Shown piece by piece: positions 38,404-54,211 of a stretch of 64,000 nucleotides of DNA. The stretch's first letter is position 1. The number at the start of each line of letters is the position of its first letter. A program made the translations under genes and the position numbers. The notes beneath the pieces are model-generated. The model had not been told where the DNA came from. It saw only the letters and a program-made list of their open reading frames with translations, and made no database searches. The stretch comes from Halobellus captivus (lineage in GTDB: Archaea > Halobacteriota > Halobacteria > Halobacteriales > Haloferacaceae), in the NCBI RefSeq assembly GCF_007655485.1, contig NZ_VJXQ01000003.1:79217-143216 (forward strand), given 5' to 3'.

Positions 38404-38595
38404 TATCCTGTCGGACGCGACGTTTCGAGAACGCCGTCCGTATGACGTCTTCTCGGCACTTCCATCCGCCAGTACAGAGCGATTCGGAGCCGAAGACAAC
38501 CAGCCAACCGTATACAACTGGTGGACCACTGCCGAGCACGGCCCCAAGAGACATACTTATGCGTGTCGTCGGACTTGCTCTCCTACGTACGTGAA

Positions 38596-39477
38596 ATGGA
38601 TTCCGTAGTTCTTCTTTCCGTTATTTTCGGGACTATCGCCGTCTTCTTTTACGCCCTTTCGGCGATCTTTATCCGGGCGGGGATTCGGGATGCGAGTCCG
38701 ATCGCCGCGATGTTCGTCAGCCTCACGGTGAACCTGGTCGCGCTGTGGGTCGTCGTACTCGCGTTTACTGACTTCCGCGTGGATCTCTGGCGGTGGCGAT
38801 ATTTCATCCTTGCCGGTCTGATGGCACCAGGTCTCGCTCGTCTGTTCAACTACGCCGGGATCGAACGCCTCGGCGTGAACGTGAATGCACCCATCGTCTA
38901 TGCGAACCCCCTCGTCTCCGTGGCGGGTGCCATCGTCGTACTCGACGAGCGTCTCTCCGCGATCGGTCTCGCTGGCGGCGTTCTCGTCATTTGCGGCGGT
39001 GCGTACGTCGGTTCTGCACGGGGTGACGGGGCCACGTCGTTCGACCGACGGCACCTGATATTCCCGGTCGTCGCCGCCCTCGTGTACGGTTTCTCGCACC
39101 TCTTCAGGAAGGTCGGCATCGACCTCGTTCAGTCACCGTTGATCGCCGCGGCAGTGACGATCACGACCTCCTGGCTTCTAGCCGCGGGATACGTGTTCGG
39201 CACTGGCGTCACTATCGACCTGAACCGTCGGCAATGGCTCTCGTTTTCGCTCTCGGGGCTCTCCAGCAGCGTCGCGATTCCGATGCTTTACCTGGCGTTC
39301 GAGGTGGGTCTCGTCGTCGTCGTCTCGCCGCTGATGAACCTGGCGCCACTGTTCGTTATCGCCATCTCCTATTTTGCGTTCCGGCAGGAGGAACTGTTCT
39401 CCCACCGCATCGTGCTCGGGACGGTCATCATCGTCTGCGGGATTACCCTTCTCACCGTGTTCGGATCGGCTTCTTAG
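38596..39477 (+). CDS. EamA/DMT family transporter
   Basis: A 293-residue drug/metabolite transporter with ten predicted spans in two EamA repeats. The first repeat includes VVLLSVIFGTIAVFFYALSA and APIVYANPLVSVAGAIVVLDERL; the second includes FPVVAALVYGFSHLFRKVG and VVVVSPLMNLAPLFVIAISYFAFRQEELF, the usual E-containing end of the DMT fold. ATG 38596 is used; the divergent peptidase gene starts 193 bp upstream. It is the first gene of the accessory catabolic region, so it may export or import a pathway compound, but no direct evidence links it. Confidence 0.82.
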   Translation: MDSVVLLSVIFGTIAVFFYALSAIFIRAGIRDASPIAAMFVSLTVNLVALWVVVLAFTDFRVDLWRWRYFILAGLMAPGLARLFNYAGIERLGVNVNAPIVYANPLVSVAGAIVVLDERLSAIGLAGGVLVICGGAYVGSARGDGATSFDRRHLIFPVVAALVYGFSHLFRKVGIDLVQSPLIAAAVTITTSWLLAAGYVFGTGVTIDLNRRQWLSFSLSGLSSSVAIPMLYLAFEVGLVVVVSPLMNLAPLFVIAISYFAFRQEELFSHRIVLGTVIIVCGITLLTVFGSAS

Positions 39478-39546
39478 CTCGTTCGGCAGAATCGGATTGT
39501 TGTCCGCGCTATCGGCGCTATCTGCACGGTTCAGCGGCTTGGAGCG

Positions 39547-40920
39547 TTAGAGGTCCTCTCTATCAGTCACGTAGGGTGCGGATGCGACGGTCGCTCGAAT
39601 TTCCGTCTCCTTATGGCGTTCGACGCTCGGCTTCGACGACCCCTCCTCGCCCCATACGAGCGTTACTTCGGTCCCGGGATCGCCGTATTCACGGTCGATA
39701 ACACCCAGCGAGAGCATCTCCCGATGATTGTAGTCGTATCCCGAAAATATCGACGTGCCGACGACCGCGCCGTCCTTCCGTATCTCGTCGAAGTGGCCGA
39801 GGTCCCACTGTTGATAAATATCGGGCATCTGAATGAATTTGTCCGTCTCTCCCTCTCGGAAGAGCGAGGCGTAGACGTCGACGATGTCGTCGGCATCCCA
39901 GACGAACGTGACCTTCGTTCGCTTGGAATCGTCCATTTTGGCCGCGATGGCTTCCTTGCCGACGAAGTCGTGTTCCATATGGATAAAGCGGTCATAACCG
40001 AGTTCGACCGGATCGAGGTAGAAGTCGGTAATGTCGTCGGAGGTGAAGCTTCCGCCGAGCGACCAGTTCGCTTCGATGCAGTCGTCGTCCAGCCACTCTC
40101 GGTACCCCTGCATCTCCTCGGAGTCGTAAACCGCCGGGAGGCCCGGCGGAAGCCACCCCGTCGTGAGCGTCGCCGTCTTGTAGGCCTTCGATCCCAACTC
40201 GCGGATTCCGTACTCTTCGCCAGCCTCGAGGATCAGGTTCTTGAACTCGTCGTGGTACTCGTACGGCCCGAATATCTCGTACCCCGGTACGCTCGCCATC
40301 CCGTGGCCTAACACGTAGAGATCGACTCCCTCGATGGAGAGTTCATCCATCCCGAAGAACGACAGTTCCGGGAACGAGCCGTCGATCACCTCCTCCAGAA
40401 TCGCCCTCGCGTGGGGACCCTGGATCTCGAACCGGAAGTCTACCGGGGGACTGTCTCCGTACGGACTGTACATATCGCTGAGTGTCGCGTCGTAGTCACC
40501 GGTTTCGAGGTTGTAGTGGATCCACTTCTGGGCGTGGCCGCGGTTGCCCGTGACGACGACCTTCTCCGCTCCCAGATAAAACAGGATGGGGTCGCCGATG
40601 ATGTACCCCTCGGGACTGCAAACCGGGTGTTGCTTGGCTCGGGGGGCATCTTCGGGGTCTAAGTCGTCGAAGCGGTTGATTCCCAGATCCGCGTTCAACC
40701 GGAGCGCGTCCGGCCCCTCGATGTAGTAATTAGCGAGGTGATACGACTGGTCCATAAGGATGCAGCTCTCTTTCCAGGCTCGCTGCTCTTCGATCCAGTT
40801 CGTGTACTCCTCGTGGTAGGCGTCCATGTGGCTGCCGCCCTTCGAGAGATCCGTCTCTCTGAACGTCTCAATTATGTTGTCAGAAGACCGTAAAACATCC
40901 TCGAGACTTCGTGTACTCAT
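39547..40920 (-). CDS. LigM/DesA-like THF-dependent O-demethylase homologue (copy A)
   Basis: A 457-residue GcvT-fold protein (folate aminomethyltransferase superfamily). Length and motif layout fit the vanillate/syringate O-demethylases LigM and DesA of Sphingobium, which move an aromatic methoxy methyl group to tetrahydrofolate, better than GcvT (about 370 residues) or DmdA. Shared blocks are EYTNWIEEQRAWKES, MDQSYHLANYYIEGPDAL, FEIQGPHARAILEEVI, GHGMASVPGYEIFGPYEY, GSKAYKTATLTTGWLPPGLP, MQGYREWL, DITDFYLDPVELGY and VDVYASLF. Start ATG 40920 is supported by TTAAGATAA about 25 bp upstream. Haloarchaea use folate, so the cofactor is plausible. The exact substrate is not shown. Confidence 0.82.
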   Translation of the reverse strand: MSTRSLEDVLRSSDNIIETFRETDLSKGGSHMDAYHEEYTNWIEEQRAWKESCILMDQSYHLANYYIEGPDALRLNADLGINRFDDLDPEDAPRAKQHPVCSPEGYIIGDPILFYLGAEKVVVTGNRGHAQKWIHYNLETGDYDATLSDMYSPYGDSPPVDFRFEIQGPHARAILEEVIDGSFPELSFFGMDELSIEGVDLYVLGHGMASVPGYEIFGPYEYHDEFKNLILEAGEEYGIRELGSKAYKTATLTTGWLPPGLPAVYDSEEMQGYREWLDDDCIEANWSLGGSFTSDDITDFYLDPVELGYDRFIHMEHDFVGKEAIAAKMDDSKRTKVTFVWDADDIVDVYASLFREGETDKFIQMPDIYQQWDLGHFDEIRKDGAVVGTSIFSGYDYNHREMLSLGVIDREYGDPGTEVTLVWGEEGSSKPSVERHKETEIRATVASAPYVTDREDL

Positions 40921-40940
40921 AGGTCTATAGTGAAAATACA

Positions 40941-40949
40941 TTATCTTAA
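40941..40949 (-). promoter_or_regulatory. TATA-like box of LigM-like copy A
   Basis: TTAAGATAA on the minus strand, about 25 bp before ATG 40920, fits leaderless transcription. Confidence 0.5.
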
Positions 40950-41122
40950 GCGTATGGGAGAGAGTCACTCACGCAGCACATTTCGGTCGCTAGCATAATG
41001 ATGCTTCTCTGATGGTAATTGTTTCAAACGCACCGTGAATCAAATCCCATCCAACGAACACGAATCGACGTGAGTGATTCGAAAACGTCGCTTACCGGAC
41101 CGCTCCCGGCCTGAGCCACCGC

Positions 41123-41132
41123 TATTATTATA
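41123..41132 (+). promoter_or_regulatory. TATA-like box of class II aldolase copy A
   Basis: TATTATTATA, centred about 27 bp before ATG 41156, fits leaderless transcription. Confidence 0.55.
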
Positions 41133-41155
41133 CTCTGCTGATCGAAGGAACCACT

Positions 41156-41860
41156 ATGTCCCAGTCTCTGACTGAGCAACTGGTCACGGCGAACCGGATC
41201 GTCGCGAACGAGGGCATCATCAGCGGGTTCGGTCACGTGAGCGTCCGTGACCCGGATTCTGATACCGTTTTGATCTCGCAGTCACGGAGTCCGGCGTTCG
41301 TGACGAAAGACGATATTCTCGAGCTCTCCCTCGACGGCGAGGTGCTCCGAGGCGACGACCGCAGTCCGTATCTCGAGAACGTAATCCACCGGGCGATCTA
41401 CCGGGCGCGGCCGGACGTCAACGCCGTCGTCCACCACCACGCCGCGCCGATCATCCCCTTCGCGGTTACGGACGTCAACATTCGACCGGCGTACCATCTC
41501 GGGATGCTGTTCCACGACGGCGTGCCGAAGTTCGACGATTACGATCCCGACTACGGATGGCTCGTCGTCACCGAGGATGAAGGAGCCCGGATGGCTGAAA
41601 ACCTCGGCGACCACCGTGCGCAACTCCTCGTGGGACACGGCGCAAACAACGTCGGATCGAGCCTTAAGGAGGCGCTCGTCACCACGTATCACTTCGTCAC
41701 GAACGCGCAGTATCAGCTCTCGGCTATGGGCCTCGGCGAGCTCACGTTCGCGGCCGACGATGAGGAGATGGCTCGCTCGACGGTCGAAGACGTGATGCTC
41801 TCGGATTTGGTCGTCGACAGGCTCTGGAACTACCTCCGAGACCGCCTCCCCGACTCGTAG
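41156..41860 (+). CDS. Class II aldolase/adducin family protein (copy A)
   Basis: A 234-residue metal-dependent aldolase-fold protein. Members include fuculose-phosphate aldolase and several aromatic-acid decarboxylases, for example the 3,4-dihydroxyphthalate decarboxylase of actinobacteria. The metal-binding motif is VNAVVHHHAAPIIPFAV and a third ligand is in LLVGHGANNVGSSLKEAL. The N-terminal acidic residue region LVTANRIVANEGIISGFGHVSVRDPD is the usual substrate-binding part. It is very close in sequence to the gene at 43311-44018 (50 of the first 60 aligned residues are identical by eye), so the two are duplicates. Function as a decarboxylase is inferred from context. Confidence 0.85.
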   Translation: MSQSLTEQLVTANRIVANEGIISGFGHVSVRDPDSDTVLISQSRSPAFVTKDDILELSLDGEVLRGDDRSPYLENVIHRAIYRARPDVNAVVHHHAAPIIPFAVTDVNIRPAYHLGMLFHDGVPKFDDYDPDYGWLVVTEDEGARMAENLGDHRAQLLVGHGANNVGSSLKEALVTTYHFVTNAQYQLSAMGLGELTFAADDEEMARSTVEDVMLSDLVVDRLWNYLRDRLPDS

Positions 41861-41995
41861 CGTTCTACGCGCTCGACCGCCGGGATTGTGGGTGACGAAC
41901 TTCCGTCCGGAAACGACCCTCGTCGTTCGCTGGGATGGCCGTCCCCCACCGACGCTGACGTCGGATATACTCCCCGTTTCGACGCCGGGGAAGAG

Positions 41996-42003
41996 TATAT
42001 ATG
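41996..42003 (+). promoter_or_regulatory. TATA-like box overlapping a possible upstream ATG
   Basis: TATATATG, about 25-27 bp before GTG 42025. It overlaps the ATG at 42001, so that codon is unlikely to be translated and the GTG is the better start of the following gene. Confidence 0.6.
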
Positions 42004-42024
42004 CCGGTTTTGCCTTGGTACGCT

Positions 42025-43011
42025 GTGTCAAAACCAGAAATCGCCCTCGCGTGTGATCTGAACGATCGGACGCGTGATTTAGCAACGGGAGCGGTGGAAC
42101 CGACCGGGATCGATCTGAATTTTCTTCCGTTCGAGGTGGAGGAGACGTTCTGGCGGATGCTCAAGCACCAGGAGTTCCAGGCGGCAGAGATGTCGATGTC
42201 CTCGTATCTGATGGCGAGAGACCAGGGTTGGCCCGAACTCATTGCCATCCCCGCGTTCCCCTCGCGCTTCTTCCGTCACTCGTGCGTTTTCATCAACCCC
42301 GATTCGGGGATCGAGGAACCGGCCGACCTCGAAGGGAAGAACGTCGGTGTTCCGGAGTACCAGATGACCGCTTCGCTGATGGTCCGGGGGATGCTCCAGG
42401 ATCAGTACGGGGTTTGCCCGGAGGATATGGTCTGGTACCATGGCGGCGAGGAGGAGGGCGGTCGCGAGGAGAAGCTTACCCTCGACCTCCCCGAACAGAT
42501 CGAACTCCACAGCATCCCGGAGGACCGAACGCTGAGCGGAATGCTTGACGCGGGCGACCTTGACGCACTCGTTTCCGCCCGGGCGCCGTCCTCATTTTAC
42601 GAGGGATCCGTCGAGCGGCTGTTTCCCGATTTCAAACGCGTCGAGAAGGAGTACTATCAGGAGACGGGATTCTTCCCGATAATGCACGCCGTGGTCCTTC
42701 GTCAGGACGTGTACGACGAACACCCATGGATCGCAAAGGAACTGTACAAGGCCTTCGAGCGCTCGAAGCAGAACTTCCTCGAGCGGATCGGAAAGATGAA
42801 CGAACTCCAGGTCGGCCTTCCGTGGCTGATCGACGAACTCGAAGAGACGCGCGACCTGATGGGGTGGGACTATTGGCCATACGGCGTCGAGCAGAACCGA
42901 GAGCTGTTGGATACGATGACGAGGTACTCCCACCAGCAGGGGTTGACGAAGGAGAAACTGGATGTCGACGAACTGTTCGCGCCGAACACGTACGCGGATT
43001 TCAAAGTTTGA
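42025..43011 (+). CDS. 4,5-Dihydroxyphthalate decarboxylase-like protein (Pht5 family)
   Basis: A 328-residue protein with a periplasmic-binding-protein-like fold, but without signal peptide, resembling Pht5, the cytoplasmic 4,5-dihydroxyphthalate decarboxylase of Pseudomonas. The match is in order: LACDLNDRTRDLATG, LPFEVEETFWRMLKHQEF, AAEMSMSSYLMARDQG, IPAFPSRFFRHSCVFI, LEGKNVGVPEYQMTASLMVRGML, DMVWYHGGEEEGGREEKL, LSGMLDAGDLDALVSARAPSSF and TGFFPIMHAVVLRQDVY. GTG 42025 is used as the start (SKPEIALACD), because the upstream ATG lies in the TATA box. NMT1/THI5-like annotation would come from the fold only. The natural substrate may be a related dihydroxybenzoate. Confidence 0.83.
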   Translation: MSKPEIALACDLNDRTRDLATGAVEPTGIDLNFLPFEVEETFWRMLKHQEFQAAEMSMSSYLMARDQGWPELIAIPAFPSRFFRHSCVFINPDSGIEEPADLEGKNVGVPEYQMTASLMVRGMLQDQYGVCPEDMVWYHGGEEEGGREEKLTLDLPEQIELHSIPEDRTLSGMLDAGDLDALVSARAPSSFYEGSVERLFPDFKRVEKEYYQETGFFPIMHAVVLRQDVYDEHPWIAKELYKAFERSKQNFLERIGKMNELQVGLPWLIDELEETRDLMGWDYWPYGVEQNRELLDTMTRYSHQQGLTKEKLDVDELFAPNTYADFKV

Positions 43012-43310
43012 TTCGGCACCCGGAAAGGGCGATTTCTACTCCGCTGTCGACTCACCCTCTCCCCGCACAGGACCGAACGAAAAACGTCTTCTACGTTGAC
43101 CGTCGCGTCTTTGCGAACTTCAGCGTTCAGCGCGTTTCCGCGTGAACAGCCCTTCGTCTCCCTCCTCGATAACGTACGCGACGTCCCACTTCCGGGGGTA
43201 CCGAACTCCACCGAGAGCCGATCGAGCGCCTGCTCGCCCTAACGGACGCGTTTACGACCCGTAGACTCCCCTTTTTCGTCGGCTAGGGACTGATGCTGCT
43301 CAGAACGTTC
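43012..43310. other. 299-bp gap between convergent catabolic genes
   Basis: No intact gene. A minus-strand frame ending at 43120 reads YPRKWDVAYVIEEGDEGLF followed by TRKRAER, which looks protein-like but has no start codon and only about 43 codons, so it may be a gene remnant. A T-run is at about 43270-43275. Confidence 0.4.
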
Positions 43311-44018
43311 TCACTTGGACCGCTCCGGAAGTTGCCGGGACAGGTACTCCCACAGTCGCTCCACCACGCCATCCGACAGCTCCGCTTCCTCGACGGTGGT
43401 TCGCACCATCGATTCGCTCTCCGGCGCGAACGTGATCTCGCCGAGGCTCTCTCCGTCGAGTTGGTTCCGCGCGTTGAGAACGAAGTTGTACGTCACGCAG
43501 ATCGCTTCCTTCAACGACCCACCGACGGTGTTCGCGCCGTGGCCAGCAAGCAGTTGCGCGCGGTGGTCACCGAGGTTCTCGGCCATCCGCTCGCCCTCGG
43601 CTTCAGTGGCGATGAGGTAGCCGCGCTCCTCGTCGTAATCGTCGAACTTGGGGACGCCGTCGTAGAACATCATCCCCTTGTGCGTGACGGGGCGCATCTC
43701 GACGTCGGTAATCGCGAAGGGGATGACCGATTCGGCGTGGTGGTGGACGACGGCGTTGACGTCCGGCCGCGCCCGATAGATCGCCCGGTGGATCACGTTC
43801 TCCAAGTAGGTTGTTCGATCATCGTCGAGAACTTCTCCGTCAAGAGTGAGTTCGAGGATGTCGCCTTCGGTGACGAACGCGGGACTTCGCGACTGCGAGA
43901 TCAGCACCGTCTCCGTCTCGGGGTCTCGAACGCTCACGTGACCGAAGCCTCGGATGATCCCCTCGTTGGCGAGGATCCGATTCGCCGTCACCAGTTGGTC
44001 CACGAGTCGGCGTCTCAT
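43311..44018 (-). CDS. Class II aldolase/adducin family protein (copy B)
   Basis: A 235-residue duplicate of the protein at 41156-41860, read on the other strand. It has the same metal site VNAVVHHHAESVIPFAI and third ligand LLAGHGANTVGGSLKEAI. Start ATG 44018 gives RRRLVDQLVTANRILANEG; the long open frame upstream is not protein-like. A T-rich TATA-like patch lies about 28 bp upstream. The two copies flank the Pht5-like gene, and differences are spread over the whole length, so they are older than a recent tandem copy. Probably acts on a related substrate. Confidence 0.84.
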   Translation of the reverse strand: MRRRLVDQLVTANRILANEGIIRGFGHVSVRDPETETVLISQSRSPAFVTEGDILELTLDGEVLDDDRTTYLENVIHRAIYRARPDVNAVVHHHAESVIPFAITDVEMRPVTHKGMMFYDGVPKFDDYDEERGYLIATEAEGERMAENLGDHRAQLLAGHGANTVGGSLKEAICVTYNFVLNARNQLDGESLGEITFAPESESMVRTTVEEAELSDGVVERLWEYLSRQLPERSK

Positions 44019-44184
44019 ACTCGTCTGACTTCGGGAGATCAAAAAAGCATACCGGACACTCAACTCCTCGTTGACAATAACTCTCTGAAGAGGTTCGGAC
44101 GGTAGAGGCTCTAAATCGCGCAAACGCGTGACTTTTTGGGCAACGGATTTATTGACCTCTCCCCTACAGTAGCGGTAGCAGACT

Positions 44185-45498
44185 ATGGACGAGGTATCAC
44201 GTGACACGGCGGCGAGAGAATACGTCGAACGGATGCGCGAGGAACCGGGGTACATCCATCCCGGGTGGGGCCAGTCCGAGTATACCAACTGGATCGACGA
44301 GCAGCTCGCCTGGAAGGAGACCTGCTACATCGGGGACTGGTCGTTCATCTCTGATCTCGAGGTCTCGGGACCCGAGGCGATCGATCTGCTCGCGGACCTT
44401 TCGGTGAATTCGTTCGAGAACTTCGCCGTCGGGCGGGGGAAACATATTGTCCAGTGTAACGAGGACGGAAAGGTACTCGCCGAAGGAGTCGTCCGACGGA
44501 CCAGTGAGGAGGCGTTCATCCTCCACAGCACGCCGAGCTACTGGACGGAGTTCAATCTGCAACGAGGAGACTACGACGCGACCTGCCGCGAGCTCGACCT
44601 GTTCAAGTTCCAAGTGCAGGGTCCGACGTCGCTGTCGGTTCTCGAAGCCGTCGCCGACGGGTCGCTTCGAGATATCGAATTCATTCACTTCGGACCGATC
44701 GATATCGAGGGCCACGAGGTCACGGCGTTCCGGATGGGAATGGCGGGCGAACTCGGGTTCGAACTGCAGGGGCCCCAAGAACACGCCGACGAAATATGGG
44801 ACGCGATCGTCGAGGCGGGAGGGGAATTCGGGCTCCGACGTTTGGGAGGCCGGACCGCCACAATAAACCACCTAGAAGCGTGTTTCCCGCCGCGAGGGCG
44901 GGTGTTCATCCCGGCCATCGTCGACCCCGAAATGGACGAGTACCAGCAGTGGCTCTTAGAGGATATGGACCGCGTTTCGCGGGACATCCTCAGTTATCCG
45001 ATCGAGGGGAGTTTCGAGGCCGACGACATCAGCGCGTGGTTCCGAAGCCCGGTCGAGCTCGGGTGGGAGAACCGGATCGCCTTCGATCACGACTTCGTCG
45101 GCAGAGAAGCGCTCGAGGCGGAAGTCGAGAACCCTCGTCGGACGATGGTCACGCTCGTGTGGGACGACGCCGATGTCGTCGACGTCTACGCCTCGCTATT
45201 CGAGGAAGGGGAGCCGTACAAGTTTATGGAGATGCCAAACAAGCAGCAGTGGAAGATGGAGTCCGACGACGTTCTCGTCGACGAGGAACCCGTCGGCGTC
45301 TCGACGTTCCGGGGGTACAGTTACTACTTCCGCGAGATGCTCTCACTGTGCACGATCGAAGTCGAGCACCGGGAACCGGGAACTGAGGTGACGGTGGTGT
45401 GGGGCGAACCCGGCGGGCCGCAGAAGGAAATTGCCGCTACTGTCGCTCCCGCTCCGTACAAAACTGACAACCGTTTCGGGAATCTAAATAGTGTCTGA
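44185..45498 (+). CDS. LigM/DesA-like THF-dependent O-demethylase homologue (copy B)
   Basis: A 437-residue GcvT-fold protein related to copies A and C. Conserved blocks: YTNWIDEQLAWKETCYIGDWSF, FQVQGPTSLSVLEAVADG, RMGMAGELGFELQGPQEH, GLRRLGGRTATINHLEACFP, MDEYQQWLLEDM and VELGWENRIAFDHDFVG, then VDVYASLFEEGEPYKF. It diverges in the middle: the usual GSKAYxxxxLxxGW segment is replaced by LGGRTATINHLEACFPPRGR, and the metal- or substrate-side residues may differ. It could therefore serve a different methyl donor from copy A. ATG 44185 is the first start after a weak AT-rich patch near 44150. The neighbour upstream is the divergent aldolase copy B. Confidence 0.8.
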   Translation: MDEVSRDTAAREYVERMREEPGYIHPGWGQSEYTNWIDEQLAWKETCYIGDWSFISDLEVSGPEAIDLLADLSVNSFENFAVGRGKHIVQCNEDGKVLAEGVVRRTSEEAFILHSTPSYWTEFNLQRGDYDATCRELDLFKFQVQGPTSLSVLEAVADGSLRDIEFIHFGPIDIEGHEVTAFRMGMAGELGFELQGPQEHADEIWDAIVEAGGEFGLRRLGGRTATINHLEACFPPRGRVFIPAIVDPEMDEYQQWLLEDMDRVSRDILSYPIEGSFEADDISAWFRSPVELGWENRIAFDHDFVGREALEAEVENPRRTMVTLVWDDADVVDVYASLFEEGEPYKFMEMPNKQQWKMESDDVLVDEEPVGVSTFRGYSYYFREMLSLCTIEVEHREPGTEVTVVWGEPGGPQKEIAATVAPAPYKTDNRFGNLNSV

Positions 45499-45661
45499 GA
45501 GTTGGCGTAACGGTCGACGCCGATACGCGGACTCACGCTCTCGCGGTTAACGGCACGGTCCCACCCTAGACGAATCGTCTCACTCGTCTCCCGACTCTAG
45601 CTGCGGGTCTACAAAACCCGCGTAATTGATTGTTCTATTACATACCTTTCGGGGGGTTAAG

Positions 45662-45669
45662 TTTATATT
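45662..45669 (+). promoter_or_regulatory. TATA-like box of tctB
   Basis: TTTATATT, about 25 bp before ATG 45691. It supports 45691 rather than the ATG at 45678 as start. Confidence 0.55.
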
Positions 45670-45690
45670 CACAAACTATGACCAACAACT

Positions 45691-46251
45691 ATGACGATCA
45701 CACCGGGATCCATAGATCCGATCTTCGAGCGGCTCTCGTCGGTGGACAGCCGCCTCTGGTCGGGAATATTCTTCGGCATTCTGGGTCTCTATACGCTCGC
45801 CGTCGTCCTCGAGGCGAGGACGTACAGCAGCGATGCCCGGTTATTTCCGCTTATCGTCGGCGTTCCGTTCCTCGGGTTAGTTGTGTTGAAACTGGTGCTT
45901 ATGGCGGCATCCGGAAGGCTGTCGCTGGGGTCGTTCGAAGTCATCGACTTGGCTGACGGAATGGGAGAGACGGCCGCTGTCGACGTAACGCCAGCCGTTC
46001 GCTATCGACGTGAGTTCGCGATGATTCTCTGGATTGTCGTCTTGTCCGCGTTACTCTGGGCGTTCGGATTCCTATTCGCGCTACTTGTATTCCTATTCTC
46101 ATTCGTTCTGCTGTACGAACGGAAGCCGATCCGGGCAGCCCTCGTCGGCGTCGGGACCTTCTCTTTCGTGTACGTGTTTTTCATCCGATTGCTCGGCGCG
46201 AACATCTACGAGGGGGCGTACCCGATCGCCGTCTTGGGAGCCCTACTATGA
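45691..46251 (+). CDS. tctB: Tripartite tricarboxylate transporter small permease, TctB family
   Basis: A 186-residue protein with four hydrophobic segments: LWSGIFFGILGLYTLAVVLEA, FPLIVGVPFLGLVVLKLVLM, LWIVVLSALLWAFGFLFALLVFLFSF and AALVGVGTFSFVYVFFIRLLG. This is the layout of TctB, the small subunit of the tripartite tricarboxylate transporter. The N-terminal residues (TITPGSIDPIFERL) form a hydrophilic leader. tctA follows about 110 bp later in the same direction. TTT systems often import aromatic and tricarboxylic acids with the help of a TctC receptor, which is present nearby. Confidence 0.83.
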   Translation: MTITPGSIDPIFERLSSVDSRLWSGIFFGILGLYTLAVVLEARTYSSDARLFPLIVGVPFLGLVVLKLVLMAASGRLSLGSFEVIDLADGMGETAAVDVTPAVRYRREFAMILWIVVLSALLWAFGFLFALLVFLFSFVLLYERKPIRAALVGVGTFSFVYVFFIRLLGANIYEGAYPIAVLGALL

Positions 46252-46363
46252 GGACGCTGGGAACTACGACCACTCACCGGGTCCGCTGTGACCGCACGAC
46301 GTCCGCCGCCGAACGGCGAACCCGGTGGGAGAGGCGAGAGCAGGAACCCTCGGAGGTCGTTCG

Positions 46364-47899
46364 ATGACGGAACTATTCACGGCGATCGACCTGTTGCTCC
46401 CGCTCCAGCAGACGGGGGATCCGACCGAGGCGATACGGATCGCTATCGACACGGTGCTCACTCCGAGAAACCTCGTCTACATTTTGCTCGCGACGCTCCT
46501 CGGATTAGTCGCGGGGATGTTTCCCGGTCTGGGTGGGCCCGTTGCGCTCGCGCTGCTCATTCCGATCACGTACCCGCTCCCGGCGAACGTGGCGCTGATG
46601 ATCCTCGCGGCTAACCTCGGCGGAACGGCGTTTGGGGGTTCGATCACGGCGATCCTCCTGAACACTCCCGGTGACGCGCCGAACGCGGCCACCGTGTTCG
46701 ACGGATATCCGCTAACTCGACAGGGGAGGGCTGGCGAAGCCATTGGGGCGAGTGCGACCGCATCCGCCCTCGGCGCTATCCTGGGCGTTATTCTCCTCGT
46801 TGCGACGATTCCGTTCATCCGACAGCTGTCGGTTGCGTTCCACTCTGTCGATATTTTCTGGCTCGCTCTCCTCGGTTTGGCGACGATTGCGGTCGTCACC
46901 CGGGGGTCGGTGATCTCGGACCTGATCGCTGGCGGGTTTGGGCTGATACTGGCCTTCCACGGGCTCAATCCGGTGACCGGAAGCGCTCGGTTCACGTGGG
47001 ACTTCGATTACCTCCTGTCAGGGGTGCCGCTCGTCCCGCTGATCATCGGCGTATTCGCGATCGCGGAGATGATCAAGCTGATGGGCGAGCGATCGACCAT
47101 TTCGCAGGAGGAGCCGGACATCAAAGGTGTCCTCGTCGGCGTCAAATCCGTCTTCAGAAACTGGAAGGTGTTTCTCCGAAGCTCCTCGTTGGGTTGGATC
47201 ATCGGGACGGTTCCGGGCGCTGGCGGCACTGTGGCGAACTTTTTGGCGTATCTCCAGGCGAAGCAGACCGACCCCGACCCGGACTCGTTCGGAAAGGGTA
47301 ACATCAACGGCGTCATCGCCAGCGAGGCGGCGAACGACGCCAAAGATGGCGGGTCAATGGTGCCGACGCTGGGGTTAGGAATCCCCGGATCGGCCTCGAC
47401 AGCGGTTCTCATCGGCGCATTCGTGATCAACGGGGTCAGTCCCGGTCCGCTGCTGTTCCGAGAGAACCTTCAAATCGTGTTCATCATCGTCTTCGCGCTG
47501 ATTATCTCGAACGTCCTCACGTCGATCGTCGGCCTCGCGTCGGCGAAGTACCTCATCAAGGTGACACAGATCAACGTGACGACGCTGGTTCCGATCGTCG
47601 TCATCGTCGGTCTCATCGGATCGTTTGTCATCCGCGGACAGTTCAGTGACGTCCTCCTGACCGTCGGATTCGGCGTGATCGGATTCTTTATGGTGAAGTT
47701 CGGCCTCTCCCGGGTCGCGCTGATCGTCGCCCTAGTCCTCGGACCGCTTGCGGAGCAGAACTTCCACCGGGCGTTCCAGATCTCCAGGGGCGACCCTTCG
47801 ATCCTGTACAACCGACCGCTGTCGCTCCTGCTGATCCTCGGAATCGTCTTAGTTCTCGCCATCCCGCTGTACCGCAGTCGAAGGGCGTCCCGTACCTGA
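46364..47899 (+). CDS. tctA: Tripartite tricarboxylate transporter large permease, TctA family
   Basis: A 511-residue permease with about 11-12 membrane spans. Family signatures are GLVAGMFPGLGGPVALALLIP, then NLGGTAFGGSITAILLNTPGD and FDGYPLTRQGRAGEAIGAS, with GTVPGAGGTVANFLAYLQAK and KDGGSMVPTLGLGIPGSASTA in the second half. ATG 46364 is preferred over GTG 46325, which adds a hydrophilic leader. With TctB and the Tat lipoprotein receptor at 48169 it forms a full TTT importer. The substrate cannot be read from sequence but the location among aromatic-acid genes suggests an aromatic carboxylate. Confidence 0.92.
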   Translation: MTELFTAIDLLLPLQQTGDPTEAIRIAIDTVLTPRNLVYILLATLLGLVAGMFPGLGGPVALALLIPITYPLPANVALMILAANLGGTAFGGSITAILLNTPGDAPNAATVFDGYPLTRQGRAGEAIGASATASALGAILGVILLVATIPFIRQLSVAFHSVDIFWLALLGLATIAVVTRGSVISDLIAGGFGLILAFHGLNPVTGSARFTWDFDYLLSGVPLVPLIIGVFAIAEMIKLMGERSTISQEEPDIKGVLVGVKSVFRNWKVFLRSSSLGWIIGTVPGAGGTVANFLAYLQAKQTDPDPDSFGKGNINGVIASEAANDAKDGGSMVPTLGLGIPGSASTAVLIGAFVINGVSPGPLLFRENLQIVFIIVFALIISNVLTSIVGLASAKYLIKVTQINVTTLVPIVVIVGLIGSFVIRGQFSDVLLTVGFGVIGFFMVKFGLSRVALIVALVLGPLAEQNFHRAFQISRGDPSILYNRPLSLLLILGIVLVLAIPLYRSRRASRT

Positions 47900-48168
47900 G
47901 GCGCTGAAATCAGAGGTCGCGGAGCCTAAACACCCGCTCGCCCGCCGCCCGCTTCGGTAGTCTCCGACCAGAACGGCCCTCTCGCCGCGGTCGTCTTTTC
48001 TGCTGGCTCTGCGGGTCAGTCAACGGCTACGCGCTACCGTCGGAGATCTCCGGTGAATCGCCTCGTGAATCCCTCACGTTTCCGTCGCAGGCCGGTCGAC
48101 TATCCGTCTGCGACCGGTGAAAAACGAGGCGCAGCGAAAGTACCGACTCGAAAAGAGGCGTTGCTACA

Positions 48169-49335
48169 TCAGCTACTGAACGCGTCCCGAATCAGCCCCG
48201 CGTACGGCTCCTCAGAGAGGGTATCGAACGTCGTGTCGATCGCCTCACTGACCCGCTCCTCGCCCGCTTCGGGGTCGATGATGGGTCGTGCCGCCTCCCG
48301 GGCCTCCTGGACGAACTCCTCGTTCGAGGTGATCGTCTCGAAGGCCCCGACCAGCCGTTGGTGGACGTCGTCCGGGACGCCCGGCGGCGCCGCGATGAAC
48401 CGCCGGAACACCGTGAGTTCGTTGTACTCGACGATGTTGTCGATGTCGAGATCTGTCGAGTGGTGCATAACCTCGATGCCCTGGTCCTCGAGGTACTCGT
48501 TGACGGAGTGGTCCGGCGATTCGAACAGCACAAACATCTCCGCGGCGAGCGCGTTCACCACTTTCGCCGCCGAGGAGGCGGTTCCGACGGTGAAGGCGTT
48601 GCCTTCGCCCGACTCCAGGCCGGCAAGCGCCGCGCCTGTCCCTTCGTAGTGCACGAAGTTCGGTGCGTCGACGTCGAACTCGCCGGTCATCCCTCCGAGC
48701 AGGACCGTCAACATATGCGCGGACGAACCGCGACCCTGGGTGACGAAGTTCAAGTCCGGCACGGCGTCGATGAACTGATCCCACGTGTCGATGTTCGCCG
48801 ACTCCATAAGGACGAGTTCGTTCGGGTCCTGCGTGACATATCCGATTTTGGTCCAATCGCGCACGTCGAACTCGACGTCGAGGCCGATCTGTTTGTACGC
48901 GGCCTCCTTCGGCGCCCAGATAATCAGCGTATGACCGTCGGGTTCGGCGTTCGCCGCCTGCGTCGCGCCGACGACCCCGCCGCCCCCGGTGACGTTCTGT
49001 ACGTTCACCGTCGTCCCCAACTCCTCCTCCAGGTACGGTGCCATTAACCGGGCATACGCATCGAATCCACCCCCGGTGGAGTACGGAACGATGAGGTCGA
49101 TGTTTCCGGACGGGAAGTCCGACCCCGACTCAGTGGTAGTCTGGTCATCTCCCCCGTCCTCACTGCTGTCACCGCCGCTATCGCCACCGCTGTCCCCACC
49201 GCTGTCACCGGTGTCCGACCCACCTCCGCCTCCGAGACACCCCGCTACCGTCCCAACGAACGCCGCGCCTCCGGCTGTTTTGAGAAACCGACGTCGGTTC
49301 GCTACTGCCCGTTGGTATTTGTCACCGTTTACCAT
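48169..49335 (-). CDS. tctC: TTT receptor lipoprotein, TctC/Bug family, Tat exported
   Basis: A 388-residue substrate-binding protein. The N-terminus carries a Tat motif (NRRRFLKTAG), a hydrophobic stretch and a lipobox VAGC, followed by an acidic Gly/Ser linker with repeated GGDS units. The mature TctC domain shows IDLIVPYSTGGGFDAYARLMAP, VNVQNVTGGGGVVGATQAA and LNFVTQGRGSSAHMLTVLL, with a Cys-anchored lipid facing outward. It starts at ATG 49335 and is transcribed toward tctA on the opposite strand from tctBA. A TATA-like box is about 26 bp upstream (49358-49365). It should bind the substrate for TctBA. Confidence 0.92.
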   Translation of the reverse strand: MVNGDKYQRAVANRRRFLKTAGGAAFVGTVAGCLGGGGGSDTGDSGGDSGGDSGGDSSEDGGDDQTTTESGSDFPSGNIDLIVPYSTGGGFDAYARLMAPYLEEELGTTVNVQNVTGGGGVVGATQAANAEPDGHTLIIWAPKEAAYKQIGLDVEFDVRDWTKIGYVTQDPNELVLMESANIDTWDQFIDAVPDLNFVTQGRGSSAHMLTVLLGGMTGEFDVDAPNFVHYEGTGAALAGLESGEGNAFTVGTASSAAKVVNALAAEMFVLFESPDHSVNEYLEDQGIEVMHHSTDLDIDNIVEYNELTVFRRFIAAPPGVPDDVHQRLVGAFETITSNEEFVQEAREAARPIIDPEAGEERVSEAIDTTFDTLSEEPYAGLIRDAFSS

Positions 49336-49357
49336 ACAGAAATCAAAGCGTCCAGCT

Positions 49358-49365
49358 TACTTAAA
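49358..49365 (-). promoter_or_regulatory. TATA-like box of tctC
   Basis: TTTAAGTA on the minus strand, about 26 bp before ATG 49335, supports leaderless transcription. Confidence 0.55.
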
Positions 49366-49532
49366 CCTGTATTATTATTCATTCCATATCTGATGGCTAT
49401 GGCGTCCGGTGGTCCGAACTCGCACAGTTATGAACTGAACGTATGCGGACAGTTCACCGTCTGTGCCGTCTCCGGCTCGAAACGGAAACGAACTCTCGTT
49501 TCGGGCTCTCTACCGACACTCTCGGAGACCCT

Positions 49533-50762
49533 TCATTCGGTCGGGTTCGGTTCCGGACCCAGTCTCACCGCGAGCGTCACGGCGTACGCCATCGCAGCGA
49601 TTGCAGCGAACGCGAACGCACCCTTGAAGCTGACCAGGCCGATGAGAACGCCCATCAGCAGCGGTGCGAGCGTGAGCGCCCCGCTCTTGAAGAACTGTAG
49701 GCCGCTCATAATTCCCGCCCGTTGTTCCTCGTCGGCGAACGCGGCGACCGCGTCGTTGACCACCGGATTGAGCACCGCCTCCCCTAGCGCGTAGAATACG
49801 GTGGCAACGACCAACATCCAGACATTCGGCGAAAACGGGAGCACCGCGGTGCCGACGATCGCGAGAACAATACCCGCGAGCATCGTGTTTTTTCGCCCCA
49901 GTCTGAGGAGCACAGAGCCCGAAATGGGAGAGACGATGACACGAATGCCGCCGTACACGCCGAGGACCGTCCCCGCAACGGTGGCTGGCGATTCGAGCTC
50001 CGAGACGACGAACACGGGGAGGAAGGTTGTGAAACTGGCCTTGAGGAAAAACAAGGTGAATCCCCCAGCGATGAAGAGAGCAAGTCGACCGTTCGCCGCG
50101 GCCAAGATGGTTCGGACGTACGCGCGGAGTTCCGCGACGACGACTCCGCGTTGGAGATCTGGACCGTCGCAGTCGAGCGGTTCCGGGTAGTACCAGTATA
50201 CGAGCAACGCGACCGGGAGTGCCAGAGCGAACATGACGAACGGCAGTTGCCACGCGATTATCACGAGAACGCCAGCCACGATGGGTGCGACCGCGCTGGC
50301 GAGTCCGTTGATGCCCGATCGTATTCCCTGCGCAGCTGATCCCTCGGCACCGGTGTAGAGGTCTCCGGCAAGCGTGGCAGATAGCGGTAACACGCCCGCG
50401 AACGCCGCACCCTGCACGGCGCGTAGCCCCAGTAGCACCGGATAGGTCGTTGCCCAGAGCGTCGCGATTCCTGAGACACCGAACAGGACGAGCGAGGGGA
50501 TCAATATGGTCCGTCTCCCGTAGATGTCTGCGCCCACGCCGACCAGCGGGACTGCGAGCATCTGCGTGAAAAAGAACATACTCATTACCAAACCGATCTC
50601 CGATTCGGTGAGCGCGAACTCGCTTCCGATGTCCGGGAGCGCGACGGGCGCGGCGTTAAGTCCGAGCGCCGCGACGCCACTCGAGAGAAACACCACCAGC
50701 AGGGCTGAATCCGTCAACAGCGTCCGGTAGGAAACGCCGGTGGCGTCCGAGGAGGCGGTCAT
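49533..50762 (-). CDS. MFS transporter
   Basis: A 409-residue major facilitator with about 12 hydrophobic spans. It starts at ATG 50762 (TASSDATGVSYRTLLTDSAL). The loop 2-3 motif is VPLVGVGADIYGRRTILIPS (GxxxDxxGRR-like), and a related motif is SPISGSVLLRLGRKNTMLAG in the second half. The N-terminal half resembles drug-proton antiporters (AGVLPLSATLAGDLY, the type motif C region is not perfect). It could move an aromatic acid or its product. The gene sits between the tctC receptor and the amidohydrolase gene in the same accessory cluster. A TATA-like ACATATATACG is about 30 bp upstream. Confidence 0.83.
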   Translation of the reverse strand: MTASSDATGVSYRTLLTDSALLVVFLSSGVAALGLNAAPVALPDIGSEFALTESEIGLVMSMFFFTQMLAVPLVGVGADIYGRRTILIPSLVLFGVSGIATLWATTYPVLLGLRAVQGAAFAGVLPLSATLAGDLYTGAEGSAAQGIRSGINGLASAVAPIVAGVLVIIAWQLPFVMFALALPVALLVYWYYPEPLDCDGPDLQRGVVVAELRAYVRTILAAANGRLALFIAGGFTLFFLKASFTTFLPVFVVSELESPATVAGTVLGVYGGIRVIVSPISGSVLLRLGRKNTMLAGIVLAIVGTAVLPFSPNVWMLVVATVFYALGEAVLNPVVNDAVAAFADEEQRAGIMSGLQFFKSGALTLAPLLMGVLIGLVSFKGAFAFAAIAAMAYAVTLAVRLGPEPNPTE

Positions 50763-50787
50763 TATCGAACCGGTACTCCCACGGGTC

Positions 50788-50797
50788 GTATATATGT
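50788..50797 (-). promoter_or_regulatory. TATA-like box of the MFS gene
   Basis: CATATATACG on the minus strand, centred about 30 bp before ATG 50762. Confidence 0.5.
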
Positions 50798-50895
50798 AGT
50801 CCAGGGTGATTCGCGATGACGGTAATGCGGTCCGTCACCCGAGGAGCACAAATTCCCCTTTGACAAGGCATTTCGACGTCGCTCTGCGGACCTAC

Positions 50896-50904
50896 AAATT
50901 TATG
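50896..50904 (+). promoter_or_regulatory. TATA-like box of the amidohydrolase gene
   Basis: AAATTTATG, about 29 bp before ATG 50929. The ATG within it is excluded as a start, since translation from it would add a non-conserved leader to the protein. Confidence 0.55.
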
Positions 50905-50928
50905 CTGCAACCTCCCTATTCCTCATCT

Positions 50929-52074
50929 ATGTCCGTTAAAAAATTCCAGCCGGCGGACAGGCCGGAAATCCCGGAAGCGGTCCGCGAGGCGTTCATCGTC
51001 GATATCGACGTGCACCTCTCGATCAAAATGCTCGACGACCTCTTCCCGTATATGGACGATCGGATCGTCGACAAACTCGATCGGCCGTGGGGGAAATACC
51101 AGTTCGAGGCCATCGACTGGCTCCCCACCTGGGCGAACGACGCTGGCGGGATCGGCGTCGACAGCCACGGAACGGCGAAGACCGGCGAGGATATCTTGGC
51201 GATGATGGAGTCGATGGGGACGGACGTCCCAATCGTCACGCCCGGATTTCAGAGCCTCCCGCAGGTCGCGTACCCGCGGATGAAAGAGGAGGTGTGCCGC
51301 GCGTACAACGACTACGTGTTAGAACACGTCACTTCGGCTCACGACAACATCCACGCGCAGATCCTCCTCCCGCTCTGGGACCCCGAGCAAGCGGTGGCGG
51401 AACTCGACCGCGTTGGCAGCGAGCCCGACTTCGCGGCCGCCTACGGGTGGTTCGGGAAGTTCTGGCGGCTCGGCAATCCGGAGTACGATCAGCTGTACGA
51501 CAAACTGACTGAACTGGATCTCCCGCTCTCTCTCCACCTCGACGTCGCCTCCTACGCCGACAAGGCGACGCCGGAGGGAGACGCGATCCGGACGTGGATC
51601 GAGGCCATCGGCTTCGATCCGGCGACGCACGCGATTATGAACACGGTGAATATGATCGTCACGGGCGTCTTCGACAAGTATCCGGATCTGAACGTGGTGT
51701 ACCAGGAGGGCGGCGTGCACTGGCTGCCTTTCGTCGCCTACCGGATGGACGAGTTCTATCAGCACACGCCGGAGGACGTCCAACTGGCGGAACGAATGTA
51801 CGATCAGAACAAGAAGTACCTCGATAAACTCCCCAGTGAGTACCTCTGGGAGAACGTCAAATTCTCCACCCAACCCGTCTGTCTCCCCGACAATCCGAAG
51901 CACTACGAGTGGCTGTTGGAGATGGAACATGCGGAAAACACGCTGATGTTCGCTACCGACTGGCCGCACAGCACGAACGACCCGCCGACGTGGATCTTCG
52001 AACATCCTCACATCGACGAGCCGATGCGCGAGCGCATACTCCACGAGACTGCGGAGGAGGTCTACCGGCTGTGA
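50929..52074 (+). CDS. Amidohydrolase 2 family protein (putative aromatic acid decarboxylase)
   Basis: A 381-residue protein of PF04909, the group of ACMS, gamma-resorcylate and 5-carboxyvanillate decarboxylases and related hydrolases. The first metal motif reads FIVDIDVHLSIKMLDD, with a single clear histidine; the barrel centre is LSLHLDVASYADKA and the next histidine region VVYQEGGVHWLPFV, and the C-terminal aspartate motif is LMFATDWPHSTNDPP. Start ATG 50929 (SVKKFQPADRPEIPEAV) fits leaderless transcription. It lies just before a Rieske protein gene (16 bp) and probably shares its transcript. Decarboxylase or hydrolase activity cannot be separated by reading. Confidence 0.82.
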   Translation: MSVKKFQPADRPEIPEAVREAFIVDIDVHLSIKMLDDLFPYMDDRIVDKLDRPWGKYQFEAIDWLPTWANDAGGIGVDSHGTAKTGEDILAMMESMGTDVPIVTPGFQSLPQVAYPRMKEEVCRAYNDYVLEHVTSAHDNIHAQILLPLWDPEQAVAELDRVGSEPDFAAAYGWFGKFWRLGNPEYDQLYDKLTELDLPLSLHLDVASYADKATPEGDAIRTWIEAIGFDPATHAIMNTVNMIVTGVFDKYPDLNVVYQEGGVHWLPFVAYRMDEFYQHTPEDVQLAERMYDQNKKYLDKLPSEYLWENVKFSTQPVCLPDNPKHYEWLLEMEHAENTLMFATDWPHSTNDPPTWIFEHPHIDEPMRERILHETAEEVYRL

Positions 52075-52089
52075 AGGGGGAGTAAAGGG

Positions 52090-52443
52090 ATGACAGAACA
52101 CATCGTGGGGTCCGTCGACGAGGTACCGGACGGCGGCGTGATCGGTGTCGAGGTCGACGGCCTAGAGATCGCGATCTTCAACTGCGACGGAGATTTCTAT
52201 GCGATGCAGAACCGCTGTATCCACAGGAGAGCGGCGCTCCACCGGATCGACGAGGAGCGGATCGGCGAGGATGACTGCCTGACCGAGGGACCGGGCGACA
52301 TCGACTGCGAAAAACGGGTCACGGCCTGCCCGTGGCACGGCTGGAAGTTCGAATTGGAGACGGGACAGCACCAGACGACCGAAAAGCGGATGCGAACGTT
52401 CCCGGTGATAGTCGACGGCGACGAACTGCGAGTCGACGTATAA
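52090..52443 (+). CDS. Rieske [2Fe-2S] ferredoxin
   Basis: A 117-residue stand-alone Rieske protein. Cluster ligands are in NRCIHRRAAL (CxH) and ACPWHGWKFELETG (CxxH), separated by a long insert with two more cysteines (DDCLTEGPGDIDCEKR) that is typical of haloarchaeal Rieske ferredoxins. It would deliver electrons to an oxygenase or reductase partner. It follows the amidohydrolase by 16 bp, with a purine-rich AGGGGGAG-like sequence before ATG 52090. No terminal oxygenase alpha subunit is found in this window, so the partner is encoded elsewhere or the protein has another role. Confidence 0.88.
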   Translation: MTEHIVGSVDEVPDGGVIGVEVDGLEIAIFNCDGDFYAMQNRCIHRRAALHRIDEERIGEDDCLTEGPGDIDCEKRVTACPWHGWKFELETGQHQTTEKRMRTFPVIVDGDELRVDV

Positions 52444-52593
52444 CTCTGGCCGCGGGATCGCCGTCAAAACGGTCGGTCATTTTCCCTCACTTCGCTTCCG
52501 TGCACCGTGAGAGCCGACGCGGTTTCTCAAAAAAACGGGACCGTACCGGCAGTACCGAACGACGAGATCGAGGGTCGACCTCGAAAGGCCGCT

Positions 52594-53958
52594 TCACGCC
52601 TTCCGGAGGTCCTCGGTATACGGTACCGGGGCGACGGTCGCGGAGACTTCCGTCGGCTCGTGATCCTCGACTCGCGGGTTGATCGAGTCGCTTCCCTCTC
52701 CCCAGTGGACGGTCACTTCGGTCCCGGGTTCGCTGTATTCCAGATCGACGACGGCGAGCGAGGCGATGCCGCGGATATCTGGTTCGTACGACCGACGGCG
52801 GGAAAGGCCGACGAGGCTGCCGTCTTTCGTCACGCTGTCGAACGCCGAGTTCCCCCACCGGGACCGCGGAAGCTCGAAGTACTTATTGGGGGTACCGTCA
52901 CCGTACAGCGATGCGTACACATCGACCATATCATCGTCGTCCCAGAGCAACGAGACGAACTCTCGCTGCTGATTGTCGAGTTGCTCTCTGAGCGCTTCTT
53001 TCCCGACGTAGTCGTGATCGAAGTCGACGAGGCCACCGAAGCCGTACTCCACTGGCGTCATATAGTAGTCCGTGATGTCCTCTGAGTCGTAGCTCCCCTC
53101 GATAGAGAACGACGCCTCGCGGCGATCCGTTCCCAGCCACTTCCTGAAGCCCTCCATCTCTTCGCCGTCGTAGACCGGCGGCGGACCCGCACCGATCCAT
53201 CCGAGTCGGACTGACTGTGAGTTATAAGCTTTCGATCCGAGGTGTCTGATCCCGAACTCCTCGCCTGCCTCGAGAATCGCGCTTTTCACCTCATCGGCGT
53301 ACTCGAACGGCCCGTGGAACTCGAATCCCGGTTGCGTGGACATCCCGTGACCGAACGCCCGAACCTGCTTGCCCGCTAGGGTGATCTCTCTGAACTTGTA
53401 GAAACCAATGTCTTTGATGTCTGCGTCGGTTATTTTCGACAGTGTAGCGTACGCGTCCGGTCCCTGAACTTGGATGATGAAACTCTCGGGATCGCCGCCG
53501 TCTTTCTTGGCAGTCGGCGGATCGAAGGATGCCGTCGCGTCGTAGTCGCCGGTTTCGAGTTGATACTCCAGCCAGTTTTCGGCACCCCACGGGACACCCC
53601 AGAACTCCTCTTCACCCAATCGAAGCAGCGGTCCGTCACCGATGAGATGACCACGGGCGTTGCAGAGGACGATATGCTTTCCGTCGCCGATCTCGAAGTT
53701 CTCGAAGCTGTTGACCGAGAAATCCTTAAAGAACTGGAAGGCATCCGGCCCCTCGGCGTGAATCTCCGTCATATGGTGGGACAGATCGCCGAGTGCAACC
53801 GATTCAATGATTGCCCGCTGTTCTTCGATCCAGTTCGTTATCTCGTTCGGGATCGCCGGAAAATGTTCGCCGAGGGTGAACGCGGTGGCGTTTCCCCGCA
53901 GCATTTCGACGATATTGTCCGATTCCCGGACTAACTCGTCGACGTTGTTAGCGCACAT
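52594..53958 (-). CDS. LigM/DesA-like THF-dependent O-demethylase homologue (copy C)
   Basis: A 454-residue GcvT-fold protein most similar in length and pattern to LigM. Blocks in order: SDNIVEMLRGNATAF, TNWIEEQRAIIESVALGDLSHH, FIIQVQGPDAYATLSKI, GHGMSTQPGFEFHGPFEY, LEAGEEFGIRHLGSKAYNSQ, VYDGEEMEGFRKWL, DITDYYMTPVEYGFGG and DMVDVYASLYGDGTPNKYF, and a C-terminal RPRVEDHEPTEV-like tail. Start ATG 53958; a GTG at 53964 adds two residues. Upstream the DNA is very AT-rich with TATTAATA about 31 bp before the start. It lies just past the Rieske gene but on the other strand, so it is separately transcribed. Confidence 0.82.
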   Translation of the reverse strand: MCANNVDELVRESDNIVEMLRGNATAFTLGEHFPAIPNEITNWIEEQRAIIESVALGDLSHHMTEIHAEGPDAFQFFKDFSVNSFENFEIGDGKHIVLCNARGHLIGDGPLLRLGEEEFWGVPWGAENWLEYQLETGDYDATASFDPPTAKKDGGDPESFIIQVQGPDAYATLSKITDADIKDIGFYKFREITLAGKQVRAFGHGMSTQPGFEFHGPFEYADEVKSAILEAGEEFGIRHLGSKAYNSQSVRLGWIGAGPPPVYDGEEMEGFRKWLGTDRREASFSIEGSYDSEDITDYYMTPVEYGFGGLVDFDHDYVGKEALREQLDNQQREFVSLLWDDDDMVDVYASLYGDGTPNKYFELPRSRWGNSAFDSVTKDGSLVGLSRRRSYEPDIRGIASLAVVDLEYSEPGTEVTVHWGEGSDSINPRVEDHEPTEVSATVAPVPYTEDLRKA

Positions 53959-53985
53959 TGGCACCTGATGATCCTCTCTATTTTG

Positions 53986-53993
53986 TATTAATA
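53986..53993 (-). promoter_or_regulatory. TATA-like box of LigM-like copy C
   Basis: TATTAATA, about 31 bp before ATG 53958, sits in an AT-rich stretch (about 53975-54030) that stands out in this GC-rich window. Confidence 0.55.
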
Positions 53994-54071
53994 TTTCCTA
54001 CTAAATAATTTATATTATATTACATTTATACGCTCCCCGCCAACTCACCCGCTCACTGGAGGATACAGGCT

Positions 54072-54095
54072 GATATCTCTGAGACCAGAGATATC
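54072..54095. repeat. Perfect 10-bp inverted repeat with 4-base loop
   Basis: GATATCTCTG (54072-54081), loop AGAC, and CAGAGATATC (54086-54095) are exact reverse complements. The element lies in the gap between LigM-like copy C and the DUF6789-like gene (stop at 54212). It has no T-run after it on the minus strand. It could be an operator or a structured end of the upstream transcript. Confidence 0.6.
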
Positions 54096-54211
54096 GCTCT
54101 TTGCTCGATACGTACTACTCCCTCGCCCTCCTCTACAGTGAGTGAAATCATCGTACCGAGAGTGACTCTCGAATCCACGTTTCACAGTCTGTTCCGACCG
54201 TCGTTCTCCGA

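Follow-up and report, generated by a model that had tools for sequence, protein, structure and literature searches.

A low-GC island of a Halobellus haloarchaeon combines LigM/DesA-like proteins with a Pht5-like decarboxylase and a putative amidohydrolase-related monooxygenase

In Archaea, the demethoxylation of lignin-derived aromatics is known only from anaerobes that use corrinoid enzymes. It has been described for Methermicoccus, Archaeoglobus and Bathyarchaeia, in which corrinoid Mto/Mtg systems operate under anoxic conditions with MT1, a corrinoid protein and MT2 together with tetrahydromethanopterin or coenzyme M (PMC8630106, PMC8359953, PMC10989822). Sphingobium sp. SYK-6 instead relies on the demethylases LigM and DesA (with MetF and LigH), which use tetrahydrofolate (THF). 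We know of no archaeon that removes methoxy groups by handing the methyl group to folate. Two further described systems are relevant here: Pht5 of the bacterial phthalate pathway, and SfbO and AibH2, amidohydrolase-related dinuclear oxygenases (ARO) whose partner is a small Rieske ferredoxin encoded next to them (PMC10811679, PMC10401708). We analysed a 64,000-nucleotide stretch of contig NZ_VJXQ01000003.1 (the window), part of a 3.35-Mb haloarchaeal genome, and describe an island in which relatives of LigM/DesA, Pht5 and SfbO/AibH2 lie side by side.

We give about even weight to the reading that horizontal transfer brought in this island as a catabolic module for a methoxy-bearing aromatic (di)carboxylic acid, with the LigM-like, ARO and Pht5-like proteins acting together. 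The island is an accessory insertion of ~15.8 kb (~38.15–54.21 kb of the window) between conserved Halobellus genes, with a GC fraction of 0.598 compared with 0.661 outside. Its flanks are separated by 16.06 kb in this genome but by 0.25–0.47 kb in three other Halobellus genomes, where the site is empty (their flanks correspond to the window up to ~38,145 and from ~54,209–54,231). No transposon-like direct or terminal repeats were found at the island ends. Since the relatives have empty sites, the GC content is low and the genes other than Pht5 are found together again at a second locus, we do not regard the set as a chance assembly; the island looks recently and horizontally gained. An initial annotation had proposed an accessory island of 14.4 kb. 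The insertion itself is confirmed, but it is larger and also contains an EamA-type permease. The genes listed there (three GcvT-fold proteins, a Pht5-like protein, two aldolase-type proteins, an amidohydrolase, a Rieske protein and TctABC) are all supported by profiles close to where they had been placed.

The three GCV_T proteins of the island, LigM_A, LigM_B and LigM_C, have SyrngDmethDesA/VanMgalDeMLigM as top NCBIfam matches (444/404, 306/272 and 403/377 bits, respectively), and score 35–55 bits with DmdA and 40–55 bits with TIGRFAM gcvT. Their best scores are under the equivalog cut-offs (800 bits for the syringate O-demethylase model, or 580 bits), indicating the same family but a different equivalog. 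A maximum-likelihood tree that also includes two other GCV_T proteins, a YgfZ-like protein and the GcvT of this genome places all three apart from these and inside the clade of Sphingobium LigM (support 100/99), in three different subclades. An identity as GcvT is ruled out by this tree, and an identity as DmdA, compared by profile scores only, by those scores, so that the LigM/DesA membership suggested in the initial annotation stands. LigM_A and LigM_C retain the equivalents of LigM Tyr247, Trp256 and Glu215 in an alignment; in this numbering, which follows LigM structure work, we take Tyr247 to be the methyl-transferring residue. A catalytic tyrosine and aromatic-binding residues have been confirmed (PMC9296663). 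The whole genome contains 21 GCV_T matches, 15 of which belong to the LigM clade and 11 of which have the tyrosine. The 15 paralogs are dispersed over the genome; taken alone, the clustering of three within 14 kb speaks weakly for a module (p about 0.02).

The genome resembles SYK-6 in having LigM-clade enzymes with the catalytic tyrosine, methylenetetrahydrofolate reductase (MTHFR), formate-THF ligase (FTHFS) and ring cleavage. It differs in being archaeal, in the 35–40% identity of the window proteins to LigM, in the 15 paralogs, in an Arg122 that is not conserved, and in island LigMs that are joined to Pht5, ARO and TctABC instead of lig genes. Whereas the Mto/Mtg systems require several components, we predict that here one LigM-type protein would pass the methyl group to folate, in a host with O2-dependent enzymes.

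Further observations concern other members of the GCV_T family. One LigM paralogue is broken into two adjoining open reading frames (ORFs) of 349 and 92 amino acids, probably by a frameshift or an assembly error (L022:9468-10809). Two closely similar GCV_T proteins (L012:3830-5260 and L023:8913-10280) belong to another subfamily; an MTHFR is found near one of the two. The H. limi plasmid NZ_CP031313 (L142, L143) carries six LigM-like matches in 208 kb.

Among 392 Halobacteria genomes, a LigM-like protein occurs in 22, MTHFR (like that beside LigM in locus L013) in 102 and FTHFS in 152. The idea that MTHFR and FTHFS are special to this genome (Haloferax volcanii has neither) is rejected by this survey; both are common in the class, and therefore only the association with LigM counts. 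MTHFR is present in 21 of the 22 LigM-positive genomes, compared with 81 of the 370 others (Fisher p 2e-12; p 7e-7 outside the genus). The gap between the LigM and MTHFR genes is <1 kb in 11 of 14 contigs compared, from genomes of three families, and bacterial relatives also adjoin MTHFR, in one case together with FolD and PurU. The island itself contains no MTHFR, and the linkage concerns other LigM copies; this genome also encodes FTHFS and a formate-dehydrogenase-like protein. The gene neighbourhoods support methyl transfer to folate as the probable chemistry of the family. Separately, a conserved haloarchaeal cluster combines LigM, MTHFR and an AMP-forming ligase (L013:7056-15585; also L145, L152, L153 and L154), frequently accompanied by genes for a thioesterase, a dehydrogenase, IclR and a branched-chain ABC importer.

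The Amidohydro_2 protein at 50929–52074 has SfbO, related "TruffO" proteins and AibH1H2 as its best matches in the Protein Data Bank (8sm7, 8sm9, 8sm6 and AibH2), both by sequence and by predicted fold (mean predicted local distance difference test score 75.6; top 20 structure matches examined). Six metal-ligand positions, deduced from an alignment with SfbO and AibH2 and from the reported ligand count of three carboxylates and three histidines (PMC10811679), read D, H, H, E, D, H and are kept in the window ARO, both of its paralogs and the other aligned haloarchaeal relatives. The beta-6 ligand position is a glutamate in the window ARO and a histidine in the genome's other amidohydrolases. 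A Rieske ferredoxin gene follows 15 bp downstream, and its product is likely the electron donor of the ARO. Because the six-ligand signature and the closest structures are of the SfbO/AibH2 type, the pair most likely acts as a monooxygenase rather than as a decarboxylase; assignment to the PF04909 mononuclear decarboxylases (ACMSD, LigW type) is rejected by the ligand pattern and the fold matches. Unlike the SfbO and AibH2 systems, this ARO is linked to LigM, aldolase and TctABC. ARO relatives are present in 30 of the 392 Halobacteria, and a Rieske ferredoxin adjoins most of the loci read. Haloarchaeal members are already included in the ARO tree of PMC10401708.

The Pht5-like protein gives a full-length match to the solved Pht5 structure 9jp7 (residues 11–335, E 5.8e-77) and is up to 52–55% identical to bacterial Pht5-type proteins, in agreement with its initial identification. 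Unlike the bacterial phthalate pathway, the island shows neither a Pht4-type dehydrogenase nor a phthalate dioxygenase gene in profile searches; one ring-hydroxylating alpha subunit is encoded elsewhere in the genome. Relatives of Pht5 in genome contigs were found by an alignment-based scan, a single-protein scan having given none. The two class II aldolase-fold proteins, Ald1 and Ald2, are inverted paralogs that share 166 of 233 amino acids and 80–84% of the DNA over the aligned arms, which suggests that they were duplicated fairly recently. As initially proposed, the tripartite tricarboxylate transporter is complete, with all three profiles (TctA, TctB, TctC) matched, and an MFS permease is also present. 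More distant Pht5-like proteins (about 30–43% identical) are found in other Halobacteria (L059–L070), often in pairs or triplets next to ABC importer genes, and probably have a different function.

Much of the gene set recurs within the same genome. A second locus (C12:483-502 kb; L016, 1973-15039) contains LigM, ARO, Rieske, aldolase, TctA, TctB, a TctC-type receptor, MFS and an IclR regulator, without Pht5, and its LigM shares a clade with LigM_C. A third locus has LigM, ARO, Rieske and IclR. Each of the genome's three AROs lies within 5 kb of a LigM, an arrangement matched by 0 of 20,000 random placements, a result that would weaken if whole clusters were duplicated.

Ring cleavage is encoded elsewhere, as the initial annotation had expected. 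An operon for meta-cleavage at C1:367-376 kb, about 7–8 kb from another LigM, contains genes for a catechol 2,3-dioxygenase-type enzyme, a hydratase, 4-hydroxy-2-oxovalerate aldolase, acetaldehyde dehydrogenase, a semialdehyde dehydrogenase-type enzyme and a decarboxylase-type amidohydrolase. Another cluster, at the end of contig C20, encodes a ring-hydroxylating oxygenase together with an extradiol-type enzyme, and in L021/L073 a LigM adjoins an extradiol cleavage operon.

From the observed gene content, families, key residues, insertion, recurrence and LigM–MTHFR linkage, we infer the following reactions, their order and a substrate. TctABC and the MFS permease would import the aromatic acid, and LigM_A and LigM_C would pass its aryl-O-methyl groups to THF via the conserved tyrosine, the methyl-THF being recycled by MTHFR and FTHFS encoded elsewhere. 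The ARO, with electrons from the adjacent Rieske ferredoxin, would hydroxylate either the substrate itself or an intermediate. A carboxyl group may then be taken off a vicinal dihydroxy acid by Pht5 and the class II aldolase-fold enzymes; the product, of the protocatechuate or catechol type, would be cleaved by the C1 meta-cleavage operon. The candidate substrate is a methoxylated aromatic acid. A hemipinate-type dimethoxyphthalate, which would use every enzyme, appears to fit best, because demethylation of dimethoxyphthalates yields 4,5- or 3,4-dihydroxyphthalate, on which Pht5 and PhtC-type enzymes act.

Several observations weigh against such a joint module. The island is made up of several divergent transcription units. 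In H. inordinatus (L056/L159), Pht5, aldolase, TctABC, ARO and Rieske occur together without LigM, and a related core is found in another genus (L055). No LigM was found in ~20-kb stretches around 19 ARO loci of other genomes, or near 79 bacterial Pht5 loci (flanks up to 10 kb, many ended by the contig). MTHFR and FTHFS are also widespread in Halobacteria without LigM. It is possible, although we consider it rather less likely than joint action, that two modules lie together here: a Pht5–Ald–TctABC–ARO–Rieske core for a non-methoxylated phthalate-like dicarboxylate, with a hydroxylating ARO, and LigMs that were added later for other substrates. The LigM-free core of H. inordinatus fits this explanation, as do the three subclades of the island LigMs, the dispersal of the 15 paralogs and the L055 cluster, whose ring-hydroxylating dioxygenase, dihydrodiol dehydrogenase, extradiol dioxygenase, DapA-family aldolase, Pht5, TctA/C and ARO are reminiscent of a pathway for phthalate or an aromatic hydrocarbon. 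However, LigM, ARO, Rieske, aldolase and TctABC are together again at the second locus, with a LigM of the LigM_C clade, and every ARO of the genome is near a LigM. Since the H. inordinatus core exists without LigM, demethylation looks like a module added to a Pht5/aldolase/Tct/monooxygenase core. It is also conceivable, but the least probable of the explanations considered, that the ARO–Rieske pair itself O-demethylates by methyl hydroxylation and that the LigMs act on other positions or intermediates. SfbO does perform O2-dependent N-dealkylation (PMC10811679), but other signs of demethylation are missing at most haloarchaeal ARO loci, and this chemistry already has a direct candidate in LigM.

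The LigM-like proteins themselves raise a further objection. LigM_B has alanine and phenylalanine at the positions of Tyr247 and Trp256 and clusters with two other tyrosine-less paralogs of the genome, so that of the three demethylases initially proposed, two retain the catalytic tyrosine and the third does not. Moreover, Arg122, the residue that binds the vanillate carboxylate, is not conserved among the aligned haloarchaeal proteins, and the substrate is therefore probably not vanillate itself. Together with the scores under the equivalog cut-offs and the breadth of the class II aldolase and Tct families, these substitutions would suit an island that degrades a non-aromatic acid, its LigM-like proteins being THF-dependent demethylases of N-, S- or alkyl-O-methyl compounds. 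We regard this as unlikely: LigM/DesA are by far the nearest families, two of the proteins keep the catalytic tyrosine, Pht5 is part of the island and a LigM adjoins the extradiol operon in L021/L073. The joint catabolic module remains our preferred reading, and the overall interpretation of the initial annotation is partly supported; LigM and Pht5 may share one substrate.

Table 1. Features of the accessory island and the evidence for each (window coordinates)
Feature	Coordinates	Strand	Evidence
Accessory insertion, ~15.8 kb	38145..54209		Flank spacing in G219, G349, G392; GC 0.598 vs 0.661
EamA-type permease, inside low-GC insertion	38596..39477 (ORF from 38521)	+	PF00892
LigM_A, LigM/DesA-type THF-dependent O-demethylase-like, Tyr247 and Trp256	39547..40920 (ORF from 40968)	-	NF047633 444 bits; 5tl4 E 3e-108; residues, tree
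Ald1, class II aldolase-fold decarboxylase-like	41156..41860	+	PF00596; 2z7b Mlr6791 E 1e-37; NF053537 PhtC 79.5 bits, under cut-off
Pht5-like 4,5-dihydroxyphthalate decarboxylase	42001..43011	+	9jp7 E 5.8e-77; up to 52-55% identity to bacterial Pht5-type
Ald2, class II aldolase-fold, inverted paralogue of Ald1	43311..44018	-	PF00596; inverted repeats 80-84%
LigM_B, LigM-clade, Ala replaces catalytic Tyr, Phe at 256	44185..45498	+	Profiles, residues, tree
TctB	45691..46251	+	PF07331 34.1 bits
TctA	46364..47899 (ORF from 46325)	+	PF01970 430 bits
TctC substrate-binding protein	48169..49335	-	PF03401 54 bits
MFS permease	49533..50762	-	PF07690 187 bits
ARO, amidohydrolase-related dinuclear monooxygenase-like	50929..52074 (ORF from 50806)	+	Best matches 8sm7/8sm9/8sm6/AibH2; ligands D,H,H,E,D,H
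Rieske [2Fe-2S] ferredoxin, 15 bp after ARO gene	52090..52443	+	PF00355; dioxygenase ferredoxin matches
LigM_C, LigM/DesA-type, Tyr247 and Trp256, clade of second ARO cluster's LigM	52594..53958	-	NF047633 403 bits; residues, tree

A search of the open-licence literature for a haloarchaeal LigM or vanillate demethylase found no relevant paper, in keeping with the initial statement that no matching haloarchaeal system has been described. Tentatively, and with slightly less than even confidence, we propose that Halobellus are aerobic methoxy-aromatic specialists that combine a corrinoid-free, THF-dependent LigM system (15 paralogs here) with Mn/Fe-type AROs; aryl O-demethylation of the folate type would then be new to Archaea, and a haloarchaeal ARO would for the first time have a pathway context that assigns it a substrate. 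The ARO family, whose natural substrates are mostly unknown, would thereby gain concrete candidate substrates. If true, the folate route of aerobic haloarchaea would be a second archaeal mechanism of demethoxylation beside the corrinoid enzymes of anaerobes, and lignin- or humic-derived carbon may serve as food in salterns and salt lakes.

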